A stretch of DNA of 64,000 bases from Luteibaculum oceani (GCF_007995015.1 NZ_VORB01000009.1:62001-126000), one strand, 5' to 3'; shown: positions 43,369 through 56,179, counted from the stretch's first letter. Program-made: numbers and translations. Notes: generated by a model not told the origin, from the sequence alone.

Positions 43369-43441
43369 GATCTGCATGCCAGAACTACTCCAGCCAAACT
43401 CCAACGGACGCCCCATTGGATTTGCAATCCAACCTCAGATG
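43337..43441. repeat. Dispersed 105-base element with two hairpins, copy A
   Basis: From CATTAAGGATGATTTGC to AATCCAACCTCAGATG. Holds GATTTGC-TAT-GCAAATC and TTGGATT-TGC-AATCCAA hairpins around the conserved block GCCAGAACTACTCCAG...GGACGCCCCA. Copy B at 50894-50998 has the same length and about four differences. The rest of the spacer to 43689 (AT-rich, with CATTTCTACATTGCTTCAC-type repetition) is gene-free and holds the leader of the next gene. Confidence 0.88.
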
Positions 43442-50893: not shown

Positions 50894-50998
50894 ATTAAGG
50901 ATGATTTGCCATGCAAATCAATCCCATCTTCATGCCAGAACTACTCCAACCAAACTCCAACGGACGCCCCATTGGATTTGCAATCCAACCTCAGATGC
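50894..50998. repeat. Dispersed 105-base element, copy B
   Basis: Same length and order as copy A: CATTAAGGATGATTTGC, hairpin GATTTGC-CAT-GCAAATC, GCCAGAACTACTCCAACC, GGACGCCCC, hairpin TTGGATT-TGC-AATCCAA, CCTCAGATG. About four substitutions relative to A. Both copies follow a gene in the plus orientation. Confidence 0.88.
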
Positions 50999-51190
50999 AA
51001 TGCCCTACCAACTTAATTATTTGGAGCACATCGTCAACCTACCCGGGCAGCGCCTCAATTTCCACATTTCCAAATTGTTCCATTGCTCAATCCTTTCACA
51101 GTTTCATCGGTACATCATTAAAATTTTTCAATCAAGGTAGGGTAATGGCTTTTTCGTGCGGTATATAACCAAACGCTAAAACGAAAAGTC

Positions 51191-52054
51191 ATGAAAACTT
51201 CAAAATTATTATCCAGGTTTGCGATGTTAATTATCGCAGCAACGGTGTTCTTCGCTTGTAAGAAAGACCACAACTCAGTTTCCCAAATTAATTCAGATGA
51301 TGAACTTATAGCTGCCATTCAGAGTGCAGAAAAGAGCGCCATCACCGAAGCGGATCTTCCAGCCTTGTCTTTAAACATAATTGAAAACGATTACGACGGG
51401 GATGTGGTAACCGAAGCTTTGCAGGCTAATGGGATCGGGTATGAGGTAAGTTTAACTAGAGCAGAAGGAGCTTATATTGGCGACCAAGGAACTACGTACT
51501 TTTCCGAAGACGGTCGCGAATTAAGGGGGAAGAAAAAAAGAAAAGGAAGATTTATTCGCAAGCGTCTTAAAGAATGTTTCCGTTTTGTTTATCCTTTAGA
51601 AATAATTCTTCCAGATACCGGTGAAGTTACATTAGCGAGTCCAGCTGACTGGCGAAAAGTGAAGCATTACTATAAATCCAATCCAGACCTAACGGATCGT
51701 CCAGAGTTTGTATTTCCACTTGAGATTGTCTACAAGGATTCCGTTGTGACCATCACAGATCAGGATCAGTTGGAAGAAGCCAAAGACGCTTGTCGCGATG
51801 CCATCAAACCCCTGCTTTGTTTTAAAAAGGTGTATCCCTTTACCTTGCTAATGCCCGATGGAGAAACGCTGATAGAGTTAACCGAAAGAAAGGATTGGAG
51901 ATTGGTACACGAATGGCATAAAAACAATCCAGATATTGATGGAAGGGGGAAAGTGCAGTTTCCAGTTACTATTAAATTTAGAGACGGATCTACCCGCGTA
52001 ATAAATAATGTCGAAGAGTTCGAAGCTGCTATGGAAGCTTGTAAAAAAGACTGA
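51191..52054 (+). CDS. Lipoprotein with two ~75-residue repeats, beside a sigma/FecR system
   Basis: 287 residues. Lipoprotein signal FAMLIIAATVFFAC (Cys23). After an acidic N-terminal part and a very basic linker (GKKKRKGRFIRKRLK, about 115-130) come two copies of one module. Copy 1 is about 133-200 (CFRFVYPLEIILPDTGEVTL, then DWRKVKHYYKSNPD, ending EEAKDAC). Copy 2 is about 213-287 (CFKKVYPFTLLMPDGETLIE, then DWRLVHEWHKNNPD, ending AAMEACKKD). Each copy begins and ends with Cys, so a disulphide is possible. It is followed by a hairpin and then the sigma factor. Known in Bacteroidota only as a hypothetical; could be the ligand, target or sensor partner of the adjacent system. Confidence 0.8.
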   Translation: MKTSKLLSRFAMLIIAATVFFACKKDHNSVSQINSDDELIAAIQSAEKSAITEADLPALSLNIIENDYDGDVVTEALQANGIGYEVSLTRAEGAYIGDQGTTYFSEDGRELRGKKKRKGRFIRKRLKECFRFVYPLEIILPDTGEVTLASPADWRKVKHYYKSNPDLTDRPEFVFPLEIVYKDSVVTITDQDQLEEAKDACRDAIKPLLCFKKVYPFTLLMPDGETLIELTERKDWRLVHEWHKNNPDIDGRGKVQFPVTIKFRDGSTRVINNVEEFEAAMEACKKD

Positions 52055-52068
52055 TTTTAATTGGATAT

Positions 52069-52094
52069 GCGGTGCACTTTAGTGTACCGCTTTA
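52069..52094 (+). terminator. Hairpin between lipoprotein and sigma genes
   Basis: Arms GCGGTGCACT (52069-52078) and AGTGTACCGC (52081-52090), ten pairs with one G-T, followed by TTTATC. The short TT loop and mixed tail make it a moderate terminator or attenuator. The GTG at 52072 lies within the left arm and so is unlikely to be a start codon. Confidence 0.65.
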
Positions 52095-52107
52095 TCTTTC
52101 AAGCACA

Positions 52108-52605
52108 TTGACCCAACAAGAATTTAAATATTGTTTCGACCAGTGGTTCGAAGAAGTTAGAAACTACATCTGTTTCCGGTGCAAAGATCCCGATCTTGCC
52201 ACGGATATAGTGCAGTCGACTTTTGTTAAAATATGGGAGAAGCAATTGGAGTTTCAAGGAGACGCAACCCGAAGTTTGGTTTATAAAATTGCTAAAGAAA
52301 CCTGGATTTCGGAATACCGGAAGCAAAACAAACAACAGGAATATCAACTGCATTTAAAGTCCGAAAACCCCAATTCAACTGAAGAAGCCATGGACCTTAA
52401 AGAACTAAAAAAAGTCTATGAACTAGCCCTTGGGAAACTATCGGAAAAACGAAGGGCCGTTTATTTAATGAGTCGCCAGGAGGAAATGAGTTACAAGGAG
52501 ATAGCGGCTTGTTTAAACCTATCTGTGAAAGCCGTGGAAAAGCGAATGAACGGAGCCTTACAAGAATTAAGAAAAGCATTACATCATGTCGTCCAATCAT
52601 CCTGA
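52108..52605 (+). CDS. ECF-type RNA polymerase sigma factor (FecI-like)
   Basis: About 165 residues from TTG 52108 (GTG 52072 would add 12 residues across the hairpin). Region 2: DQWFEEVRNYICFRCKDPDL, ATDIVQSTFVKIWEKQ. Region 4: LSEKRRAVYLMSRQEEMSYK, EIAACLNLSVKAVEKRMNGA. Short linker, no anti-sigma sensor tail. It overlaps fecR-like gene by 20 bases, so the pair is translated together. Predicted to drive the downstream receptor genes when released by the FecR protein. Confidence 0.92.
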   Translation: MTQQEFKYCFDQWFEEVRNYICFRCKDPDLATDIVQSTFVKIWEKQLEFQGDATRSLVYKIAKETWISEYRKQNKQQEYQLHLKSENPNSTEEAMDLKELKKVYELALGKLSEKRRAVYLMSRQEEMSYKEIAACLNLSVKAVEKRMNGALQELRKALHHVVQSS

Positions 52606-53464
52606 TAACACACCTAGTCCAGAGGAAAAAAAGCTTTTTTCTAAGGTAGAAACTCGCTACAGTAGGAGTAAGGAAGCGGTATGGGCCGATTTGGAAAAGG
52701 ACCTTTTTTCCAATGGAATTGAAACAAAATCTAAATCTTTTATAGGCAAGGTAATTCCTCTTTACTTTAGGTACGTTGCTGCTGCTAGTGTAGCGGCACT
52801 AATAGGGGCGTTTTTATTTATGCGCTTATCCACGAAAGTGGTTACTACCCAGTTTGCTGAATCCAAAACAGTGGATTTGCCCGATGGATCCTCAGTAGTG
52901 CTTAATGCTAATTCTAAACTTACTTATTTTCCATACTGGTGGAATTTTTCCAGAGAATTAAAGCTGGAGGGCGAGGGCTTTTTTCAGGTGAAAAAGGGTA
53001 AGAATTTCGAGGTTAGTTCTAGTTTGGGATCAACAAGGGTGTTGGGAACTTCTTTCAACATTTTCTCTCGCAACAATGGCTATCAAGTTTATTGCTCTAC
53101 TGGAAAAGTGGCTGTGAAAAATACCCAGGGGACGGAAAAACAAATCACGCCTGGCGAATTGGTAGATATCCAACCAGGAAAGGAGATAAAGGTGAAAAAG
53201 GCAGATGAGGTAGCCGTTTTAAGCTGGAAACAAAATCGGTTTTCATACAATACCACTCCACTAGGAAAGGTGTTTAAGGATTTTGAAAATTATTACGGTG
53301 TGAAAATTTTGGTAGGATCTAAAGAAATTTACAACAACTATTACACCGGAGTTTTTTCTAGGTCGCTGAGTAAAGAAGATGCTTTAACGGTGGTATGTAA
53401 AAGCTTTAACTTAAAATTTAATACCAGCGATAACAACCGTTTTGTAATTTCTAGTGGGGATTAG
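52586..53464 (+). CDS. FecR-family anti-sigma factor
   Basis: 292 residues: cytoplasmic N-terminus, single transmembrane helix (YVAAASVAALIGAFLFM, about 64-80), FecR domain in the periplasm (about 95-195; VDLPDGSSVVLNANSKLTYF, LEGEGFFQVKKGKNFEV, VLGTSFNIFS), and a DUF4974-type C-terminal domain (about 215-292; FKDFENYYGVKILVGS, YTGVFSRSLSKEDAL). It relays a signal from the STN domain of the receptor to the sigma factor. Overlaps the sigma gene and is three bases from the receptor gene. Confidence 0.93.
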   Translation: MSSNHPDNTPSPEEKKLFSKVETRYSRSKEAVWADLEKDLFSNGIETKSKSFIGKVIPLYFRYVAAASVAALIGAFLFMRLSTKVVTTQFAESKTVDLPDGSSVVLNANSKLTYFPYWWNFSRELKLEGEGFFQVKKGKNFEVSSSLGSTRVLGTSFNIFSRNNGYQVYCSTGKVAVKNTQGTEKQITPGELVDIQPGKEIKVKKADEVAVLSWKQNRFSYNTTPLGKVFKDFENYYGVKILVGSKEIYNNYYTGVFSRSLSKEDALTVVCKSFNLKFNTSDNNRFVISSGD

Positions 53465-53467
53465 ATT

Positions 53468-55924
53468 ATGCGAACCGCGCTCCTGATTTTACTTCTCCAA
53501 TTAAGTGCCTTTTTAAGTGCGCAAAATACTGTTGCACTTAATTATGATAAGGAGGTATTAAACGAGGTGTTACTGGAGCTTAGTGATCGTTACAATTTTG
53601 AACTTTCTATTAATGCTGAACTATCTGATGCTTGTAGGGTATCGGTCAATCAAAATTTCTCAAATATTTCAGAGGCTGTAGCGCATTTAGCTAAGTTGTG
53701 TGGACTAAAGCTGGATAAGGTAGGAACCGTTTTTGTGATTACTCAAAATCCGCAAGCATCTGAGCCATTTGCGGGGATAGGAGAGAATCAAATTCAGCAG
53801 GAATTTCTATATCATGGAGTAATCCGTGAACCGAAAAATGGAGAAGTATTGCCTTATTCGGTTATTCAATGCGGAAATAAGCGGGTATTAAGCGACGAAA
53901 ATGGTCGTTTCTCTTTTGTTACCGGAAATAGAAAGGAGCAGTTAATGGTGCATTCCTTGGGATATAAATTAAGTGATACGCTAATTGCCAGTGGTGGATT
54001 TTTGTCCCTAGAACTTAAACCAGAAATTTTGCAACTACAGGAAGTTGAGGTTTTAAATGGCGTAAGCCCAACCGAGGGAAATGTTGCTTCAGAACCAGGT
54101 TCAATCCAGTTTTCGGATATAGGAAACACCTTCGTAGCCGGACAATCCAATAACTTAATTTTTAACAATTTACGGCTGTATCCTGGGGTAATGGCAAGTG
54201 GAGAAAGCATCGGTGATTATGTAATTCGAGGATCTTTTTCGGGAAATAATCAGGTGCTTTTTGATGGAATTACCCTGTTTAATGCAACGGGTATAAACAA
54301 CGATATAGGTACTGTAAACCCATATTTAGTGAAGCATTTAGAACTTAATAAAAGCAATTTCTCTTCTTTAACCGGAGATCGAGTTGAGAATTTAATTACT
54401 ATAACGGGTAGGGAGGGAAGTTTTAACCGTACCGAGGCAAAACTCAATGTTACCAATCACTTGGCGGGTGGATACCTAAACATTCCACTGGTAAAAGATC
54501 ACGTAAATTTCCAGTTAGCCGGACGAAAGACATACTTCGATTTTTGGGACTTATCATCCAGTCCAGGCGAAGAAAAAGACTTGCTCTTGCCAAGCTATGA
54601 TTTCGAAGAATGGAATGCCAAATTATCCGTGCGCCTGAATTCTGGTGATAGGATTAGCTTTAATAGTTTGCAGACTACCGATAAATACGAGGCAAAATTA
54701 TTGGGACCGAAACGCAGAAATCAGGTCTTCAGAAATTTGGAAGCTCTATCCACCCAAAAGGGATACTCTTTTAATTACACCAGCGGAGCTTGGCAGCAGG
54801 GGATTTCTTCTGTGAGCATAGCTTTTTCAAGTTTTCTCCCAGAGGTTTTAAATAGCTATACGGTAGATTTTAAAAATAATACGGAGCAGCTCAGTAGTTC
54901 CTCCTGGAAAAATGGCGTGGAAGAAACCGTAGCTAAATTTAGCCATCAATTTGTACAGCAAAACGCTCACGCTGTTAGTCTAGGTGTGAGTTATACCCAT
55001 TCTAGTACCAGTCTAAACAACATTTTAAACGAACGTGTTCAAAGCTTTGATAATAGCCTAGCGCGGGTTTCCTTTTTTGGTGAGGATAGAATCCAGATTG
55101 GTAAAAAGACCATTTTTACACCTGGACTACGGGTGGATGTTGTAGATCAATTAGCTAGCAATTACCTACAACCCCGACTGGCTATACAGCATTATCTAAA
55201 CCCAAGTTGGAAGATGTATGCATCCTGGGGCAGATATAATCAGTTTTTATTTAAAACAACCACCATAGATGGCCGTGGAAACCTCGGGTCTATCTGGAGT
55301 GTGGCAGATGATCAACGCAGATTACCTCTAAAATCTAATCAAAGCACCGCTGGATTTTTATGGACCCATAGTGCATGGGAACTCAATGTTGAAGGTTACT
55401 ACAAGTATTTAAGCAACCTTCAGCGCGTTTATTTAGCACAAAGTTTGGGGGATAAATTTCAATTGGGCAACGGCGAGGCATACGGCTTGGATGTAATGCT
55501 GAGGAAAAAATTAAAGCAACATAACTTTTTATGGTCTTATTCTGTAGGTCGCATACAGGAAAAGTTTAATACCGATGATTACGTGTTAGCTGCACAGCAT
55601 CAAGGTCATGAAGTTAAATTTTCCTATAGTGTTAATTTTCAGAAGTTTAAAGCTAACGTCGTACATGTTTACGGCTCTGGATTTCAGGGTAGTGGGTTAA
55701 GTGCAGATATAAACAGCACTACTCCATACCACCGAACAGATGTGGCGGCAGAGTATAATCTAATGGATGAAACCTGTCATTTAGACCTAGGATTTTCCAT
55801 TTTAAACCTTTTCAATAAGGAAAACATACGGCTTAACCAGTCGGTAAATTTTCCAGATGGCGATAGGGTAAATACTTTGGGAATTCCCTTCACTCCAACT
55901 CTGTATTTAAATCTTAGTTTTTAA
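53468..55924 (+). CDS. STN-domain TonB-dependent receptor
   Basis: 818 residues. Signal peptide LILLLQLSAFLSAQ. STN (secretin/TonB short N-terminal) domain at about 20-95 (VALNYDKEVLNEVLLELSDR, CRVSVNQNFSNISEAVAHLA), a carboxypeptidase-like domain (about 118-195), plug (GDYVIRGSFSGNNQVLFDGI, about 240) and a barrel to the end (TPTLYLNLSF). The STN domain contacts FecR-type proteins. Shorter than SusC (~1000). No SusD partner follows, which argues against polysaccharide uptake; a siderophore, peptide or signal ligand is possible. Confidence 0.92.
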   Translation: MRTALLILLLQLSAFLSAQNTVALNYDKEVLNEVLLELSDRYNFELSINAELSDACRVSVNQNFSNISEAVAHLAKLCGLKLDKVGTVFVITQNPQASEPFAGIGENQIQQEFLYHGVIREPKNGEVLPYSVIQCGNKRVLSDENGRFSFVTGNRKEQLMVHSLGYKLSDTLIASGGFLSLELKPEILQLQEVEVLNGVSPTEGNVASEPGSIQFSDIGNTFVAGQSNNLIFNNLRLYPGVMASGESIGDYVIRGSFSGNNQVLFDGITLFNATGINNDIGTVNPYLVKHLELNKSNFSSLTGDRVENLITITGREGSFNRTEAKLNVTNHLAGGYLNIPLVKDHVNFQLAGRKTYFDFWDLSSSPGEEKDLLLPSYDFEEWNAKLSVRLNSGDRISFNSLQTTDKYEAKLLGPKRRNQVFRNLEALSTQKGYSFNYTSGAWQQGISSVSIAFSSFLPEVLNSYTVDFKNNTEQLSSSSWKNGVEETVAKFSHQFVQQNAHAVSLGVSYTHSSTSLNNILNERVQSFDNSLARVSFFGEDRIQIGKKTIFTPGLRVDVVDQLASNYLQPRLAIQHYLNPSWKMYASWGRYNQFLFKTTTIDGRGNLGSIWSVADDQRRLPLKSNQSTAGFLWTHSAWELNVEGYYKYLSNLQRVYLAQSLGDKFQLGNGEAYGLDVMLRKKLKQHNFLWSYSVGRIQEKFNTDDYVLAAQHQGHEVKFSYSVNFQKFKANVVHVYGSGFQGSGLSADINSTTPYHRTDVAAEYNLMDETCHLDLGFSILNLFNKENIRLNQSVNFPDGDRVNTLGIPFTPTLYLNLSF

Positions 55925-56118
55925 AAGCCGGGTGGGCCAATCAGCCAATTCGCTAATTAGCTTTGTTTCATTTTTGGTTTACACATTGATGAATCCCTAC
56001 ATTACTCCATTTCCACATTGCTTAATTAACCCAACTCTCTCGGCGTGATTACAAATCCCGCAACGCCATGCGGTATTTTTAGTCTACGAATTCTATCCCT
56101 TACTTCCGTCCATTCATA
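55925..56118. other. Spacer with short repetition
   Basis: GCCAATTCGCTAATTAGC-like string at 55936-55963, then CATTACTCCATTTCCACATTG repetition and a GATTACAAATCCCGCAACGC / CATGCGGTATTTTTAG segment. No gene. Confidence 0.45.
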
Positions 56119-56179
56119 CCAGAACTACTTCACCCAAACCCCAACGGTCGTCCCGTTGGATTTGCAATCCAACCTCAGA
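56119..56179. repeat. Dispersed element, copy C (partial)
   Basis: CCAGAACTACTTCACCC, ACGGTCGTCCCGTTGGATTT and AATCCAACCTCAGAAG keep the right half of the 105-base element, including TTGGATT-TGC-AATCCAA. The left hairpin is missing; instead CGAATTCTAT (56087) precedes it as in the decayed 3571 copy. Downstream to 56297 only CATTTTCACATTGTTATCTT-like repetition is seen. Confidence 0.75.

Follow-up and report, generated by a model that had tools for sequence, protein, structure and literature searches.

In the 64,000-nt stretch of the 2.92-Mb Luteibaculum oceani genome that was analysed (G000:C9:62001-126000, hereafter the window), four genes follow one another on the + strand, in the order lipoprotein, ECF sigma factor, FecR and TonB receptor (Table 1). 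The open reading frames and their order are as claimed in the first-pass annotation, which had described a duplicated-domain lipoprotein directly upstream of a sigma/FecR/receptor trio. The sigma factor matched Sigma70_r2 and r4_2 above the Pfam cutoffs and TIGR02937 (ECF superfamily) above its cutoff, while the match to TIGR02985 (E 2.9e-34, 118.6 bits) was under the cutoff of 126.4. FecR (50.5 bits) and FecR_C (46.2 bits) both exceeded the Pfam cutoffs in the anti-sigma regulator, as did the barrel (55.5 bits) and the plug (27.5 bits) in the receptor. The STN-like stretch of the receptor was matched by FecR_C below the cutoff (E 0.009); in the receptor of a relative of the cassette (L042) FecR_C was above the cutoff and STN matched weakly. 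The trio had also been described as lacking SusD, and none was found: neither the lipoprotein nor the flanking ORF scanned against Pfam and NCBIfam gave a SusD match, and inspection revealed no other candidate ORF nearby. No SusC-type family model was among the receptor's matches, and no siderophore or iron genes were recognised beside the cassette.

Table 1. Predicted features of the cassette, in window coordinates.
Feature	Position	Strand	Description
Predicted ECF-sigma promoter	51137-51164	+	-35 GTAGGGTA 51137-51144; -10 CGGTAT 51159-51164
Lipoprotein gene	51191-52054	+	287 aa; lipobox FFAC, Cys23; N-terminal domain and two modules
Module 1	51575-51793, residues 129-201 (C129-C201)	+	two beta-beta-alpha half-repeats between Cys
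Module 2	51818-52042, residues 210-284 (C210-C284)	+	two beta-beta-alpha half-repeats between Cys
Hairpin GCGGTGCAC-TTTA-GTGTACCGC	52069-52090	+	9 bp, 6 G-C; T-rich tail TTTATCTTTC; predicted partial terminator/attenuator
ECF sigma factor	52108-52605	+	Pfam/NCBIfam matches; probable TTG start; ORF listed from GTG 52072
FecR-type anti-sigma/sigma regulator	52586-53464	+	overlaps 3' end of sigma gene
SusD-less TonB-dependent receptor	53468-55924	+	STN-like N-terminal domain (residues 24-83), CarbopepD_reg_2-like domain

A dispersed intergenic repeat of 67-75 nt (50929-51003, 56113-56179 and also ~43375-43441, all copies on the + strand) brackets the lipoprotein-receptor block at both ends; it has nine matches genome-wide, five of them grouped on contig C3. 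An 85-aa ORF (50911-51168) appears to be a side effect of this repeat.

Both Cys-bounded modules reported in the first-pass annotation were recovered in the lipoprotein and are 41% identical to each other; an N-terminal alpha/beta domain (approximately residues 36-105) had not been described there. Module 1 was modelled by AlphaFold2 with a pLDDT of 93.9. Its fold gave no PDB match better than E 0.7 in Foldseek, and a search of the module sequence against the PDB returned nothing significant. Several of the best PDB fold matches of the N-terminal domain were DUF2874-type, with probabilities of up to 0.82 but E-values of 0.1-0.6. Against Pfam and NCBIfam the window lipoprotein gave sub-threshold matches only and is covered by none of the models; the Rib domain (PF08428), in a single short stretch, scored 15.6 bits against a cutoff of 27. 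DUF7767 (PF24962) matched neither the window protein nor 11 other members scanned. It did match L046, a repeat-rich distant relative, above the cutoff, and through this protein such half-repeats are partly on record as a domain of unknown function. A disulphide may join the two Cys of each module; L046 is without such Cys pairs. A description of the family was not found in the literature, in a search that was thin on subscription papers. At the N-terminus, 32 of 40 family lipoproteins have at least two acidic residues at positions +2 to +6 and 31 of 40 have Q or K at +2, a pattern that resembles the lipoprotein export signal of PMC5080379. The window protein reads KKDHN at these positions, with one acidic residue, which makes its surface export less clear than that of its relatives. 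Judged from these features, the lipoprotein is probably surface-exposed.

The distribution of the family was followed with module profiles. The first one (A2) was seeded with four modules only, two of the window and two of G185, whose copies stand without a trio. Linked lipoproteins made up most of the refined profile, but the trio-blind first profile already gave the same picture. The refined profile (E <= 1e-5) detected modules in 40 genomes out of 395 from the Bacteroidota. Fifty-three loci at which the module lipoprotein was confirmed, one of them that of the window, were examined: 51 have an ECF sigma gene at a distance of up to 6.5 kb (47 of them at up to 600 nt), 44 have FecR, 46 have a TonB receptor and 44 have the full trio. 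These counts are not independent, as a single family that includes one large genus contributes many of the loci. The lipoprotein and sigma genes are divergent in 42 cases and on the same strand in 9. By comparison, 26 control regions from the same genomes contained no sigma gene, no FecR and no trio, and a receptor in 2. Co-occurrence of the family with such trios, which the first-pass annotation had proposed to examine, is thus the rule at these loci, and the family was not found to be mostly independent of them. Four weak profile matches with no trio nearby (L073, L074, L075 and L077) disappeared with the refined profile.

Nine loci are without the FecR trio, and in seven of these the partner of the ECF sigma gene is of another kind. 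The lipoprotein family is tied to ECF sigma systems generally and not strictly to the STN receptor, the FecR/TonB-receptor form being the commonest. Downstream of the sigma gene at L050, L057, L071, L090 and L095 there is, where read, not fecR but a gene for a long membrane protein whose C-terminus looks like a barrel by inspection; rpoD-like and pnp-like genes are close by in several of them. These five loci, which have a different sigma class, share another motif before the lipoprotein, GCAACCTTTTT and then GACTATTA. The Polaribacter-type loci L078 and L080 have the order sigma, small membrane protein, lipoprotein, LTXXQ-like protein, barrel-like protein. A search of the surroundings gave no TonB receptor at L050, L078, L080, L090 and L095. 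At L039, L040 and L042, sigma and FecR are separated by the gene of a small lipoprotein whose HELGHC motif resembles that of zinc metallopeptidases (L039 6250-6747 and L042 5914-6393, both on the - strand), a possible candidate for a protease that acts on FecR.

A single-protein search of 59 genomes of the window's order and of viral contigs gave no relative, and a 2-row module profile found one real relative, that of G185, among 298 genomes of this order; a match in G201 was due to chance. The cassette is sporadic outside the main family of matches: it was found in 1 of 294 genomes of the class of G641 and, with the smaller profile and G185 apart, among 299 genomes of the window's order in the window genome only, which suggests horizontal movement. 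The G641 locus (L038), in a Melioribacteraceae metagenome assembly, is the sole other one with the same layout, and a wider search of G641's class revealed no further same-layout ortholog. Its lipoprotein is 32% identical to the window protein over nearly the full length. The contig shares this lipoprotein with Melioribacteraceae MAG10 and may be misassigned.

The association extends to the particular partners present. When the window FecR was used as a query, no second match was found in its own genome, and in 18 of 18 other genomes the best match was the lipoprotein-linked copy, which ranked first of 43 in G458, first of 7 in G454 and first of 6 in G360; in G399 three linked copies head the list of 7. 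Distances between lipoproteins correlate with those between FecR proteins (module-FecR r = 0.89), sigma factors (0.75) and receptors (0.75), and when paralogous cassettes of the same genome were re-paired, the true pairing ranked 3rd, 4th and 1st of 96 for FecR, sigma and receptor, respectively. The best match of the window receptor lies in the linked locus in some genomes, not in all, so that the receptor alone is a poor tracer. By these comparisons, the module lipoprotein and one particular subclass of FecR, sigma factor and receptor are inherited together.

The predicted promoter, which the first-pass annotation did not contain, ends 26 nt before the lipoprotein ATG. It has the form GTAGGGTA-N14-CGGTAT, and in the G641 ortholog GTAGGGT-N16-CGGTAT stands before the lipoprotein. 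The pattern GTAGGGN{15,18}CGGTAT has one match in the window genome, as does its reversed control, and the stricter GTAGGGTN{14,17}CGGTAT has one in G641, 5' of the ortholog lipoprotein; the window and L038 themselves served to define the CGGTAT composite, so that its single occurrence is a statement of specificity rather than an independent test. GTAGGG was found upstream of the lipoprotein in 31 of the 53 loci against 3.6% of random 300-nt stretches of the same loci. The -35 element of the window is common to 30 other lipoprotein upstream regions, and in nearly all a -10-like element follows at a fixed spacing. At the loci that we call Flavobacteriaceae-type, a label inferred for the main family of matches, this element is TGTTTTA, TGTCTTA or a near variant (TGTYTTA), unlike the CGGTAT of the window. 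The composite motif, sought at 43 loci, lies 5' of the lipoprotein in 27, of fecR in 29 and of sigma in none; in divergent loci it is likewise found 5' of fecR as well, never of the sigma gene. Across 20 whole genomes, GTAGGGTA-N14-TGTYTTA was matched 25 times and its reversed control twice. Most of the 25 are 5' of a module lipoprotein or fecR, others are 5' of a tRNA_anti-like gene beside the receptor, and a few precede genes of secreted proteins elsewhere. Three same-order matches to the window-type promoter are in genomes in which the lipoprotein was not found, and no sigma system could be recognised behind any of them within the 3 kb read. We predict that the GTAGGGT(A)-type motif is the promoter read by the sigma factor of the cassette.

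An orphan module lipoprotein (L094, 6857-8365, - strand), with no sigma, FecR or receptor nearby, carries GTAGGGTA-N14-TGTTTTA; the motif without a local cassette suggests control in trans by the cassette L056 of the same genome. The same small secreted His/Cys-rich protein is encoded in two different genera (L128 986-1450 and L134 1010-1453, both on the - strand), behind a predicted sigma promoter and away from the cassette.

The hairpin that had been annotated between the lipoprotein and sigma genes proved real: the 86-nt stretch containing it folds with z = -3.3, and its best 40 nt are equalled by 0.075% of random 40-nt pieces of the window. The listed GTG start of the sigma gene falls within the hairpin, and homology and the ortholog make the TTG at 52108 the probable start. 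In L038, a TTG is the only standard start upstream of the conserved region of the sigma gene, and the hairpin at the corresponding place has a stem of 19 bp and then AATTTTT (z = -4.7). Two loci, one of them from a metagenome assembly, are a small sample, but the hairpin sequences differ between them, with position and form kept. A stronger terminator-like hairpin at the same place in a same-layout ortholog strengthens the idea of attenuation, and the window hairpin is predicted to attenuate transcription. Together with the TTG start and the lone predicted promoter, it fits high expression of the lipoprotein and low expression of the sigma factor, in line with the suggestion of the first-pass annotation.

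From these results, we consider it probable that the locus encodes cell-surface signalling of the FecI/FecR/FecA kind to which a fourth, dedicated member has been added, the lipoprotein being a sigma-controlled surface partner of the receptor. Engagement of the outer-membrane receptor would lead its STN-like domain to act on FecR, and the ECF sigma factor released from FecR would read GTAGGGT(A)-type promoters; this receptor-FecR-sigma step is carried over from known cell-surface-signalling systems (PMC9249621, PMC11637429). The sole such promoter of the window being ahead of the lipoprotein, this protein would be made in quantity, while the terminator-like hairpin and the TTG start would pass little transcription and translation on to sigma-fecR-receptor. 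Limited read-through would keep the sigma factor low and damp its positive autoregulation. The lipoprotein would be exported to the cell surface and work with the receptor; we infer this from the lipobox, the acidic residues at +2 to +6 and the co-control with the receptor. SusD, HmuY and BtuG are lipoproteins that work with receptors in other systems, and no relation of the window lipoprotein to any of the three was found. The lipoprotein had initially been proposed to be a ligand-binding partner, a regulated output or a lid of the receptor. Regulated output is the best supported of these roles, by the shared promoter, and a role as ligand-binding partner or lid would be plausible. The most likely description is a sigma-controlled, probably surface-exposed output and receptor partner.

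The lipoprotein could instead be an output only, turned on by the sigma factor as an envelope or surface effector (a protective coat, or a scavenger of metal or ligand) that never touches the receptor. The position of the shared promoter, 5' of the lipoprotein and never of sigma, would suit such a role, as would the motif 5' of other secreted or lipoprotein genes outside the cassette and of the orphan L094, and the presence of the family in ECF/anti-sigma arrangements with no TonB receptor found nearby. However, the near-obligate linkage and the paralog-by-paralog co-evolution with receptor and FecR exceed what a regulon member needs, and several other predicted regulon members are unlinked; we regard this explanation as unlikely, if still a serious contender. 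A passive adjacency of an unrelated lipoprotein to a common trio is conceivable where FecR trios abound, as in G458 with its 43 FecR matches, but a sigma gene at 51 of 53 loci against none of 26 controls, and a best FecR match that is always the linked one, refute it, and we give it practically no weight. Co-evolution of lipoprotein and receptor would also be expected if the lipoprotein were itself a signalling component, a ligand or feedback regulator through which the system senses its own lipoprotein, for example in monitoring export. In its favour, the lipoprotein is accompanied across arrangements by an outer-membrane barrel nearby or one apparently fused to the anti-sigma factor, and by inspection the Polaribacter-type operon has an extra LTXXQ-like protein; the barrels other than the TonB receptor were recognised by inspection only, and we consider this reading improbable. 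Broader, and quite unlikely as well, is an envelope surveillance of Bacteroidota in which an ECF sigma factor senses, via an outer-membrane barrel, the surface lipoprotein that it produces, a family taken up by three or more ECF/anti-sigma arrangements, of which two or more have a promoter motif of their own.

A separate question, compatible with any of these explanations, is whether transcription ends completely at the hairpin and starts anew for sigma from an unseen promoter, giving two separate units. Most relatives do have divergent, separate units with a sigma gene devoid of the motif, and the 19-bp hairpin of G641 is strong. In the window, however, only 53 nt separate the lipoprotein stop from the sigma start, and no convincing Bacteroidota-type promoter was seen in this gap when the consensus was applied by eye, so that we think two units rather unlikely and retain the attenuated single unit behind the lipoprotein promoter.

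FecI/FecR/FecA-type signalling has been reviewed (PMC9249621) and its mechanism described (PMC11637429). The cassette shares with it an ECF sigma factor, a membrane FecR with a C-terminal domain and a TonB receptor, here with an N-terminal stretch that resembles a signalling domain, and in divergent loci a sigma-type promoter before the receptor unit and not before sigma; fecIR of E. coli is not autoregulated (PMC9249621). In contrast to that system, the cassette adds a dedicated lipoprotein family, with modules that have no PDB fold match, and the four genes of the window are all behind one predicted promoter ahead of the lipoprotein. As in the SusC/SusD systems of Bacteroidota that are under ECF sigma/FecR control, the genes of a lipoprotein, a TonB receptor and a sigma/FecR pair occur together, but SusD is lacking, and solved structures gave the lipoprotein modules no significant match in sequence or fold. 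Sigma/FecR/TonB-receptor sets are numerous in Bacteroidota, and the subclass described here brings its own conserved lipoprotein. For one subclass of Bacteroidota ECF sigma factors a target promoter sequence is offered, and the predicted promoter, which can be mutated, and the recurring hairpin make a system to which no function had been assigned directly testable.
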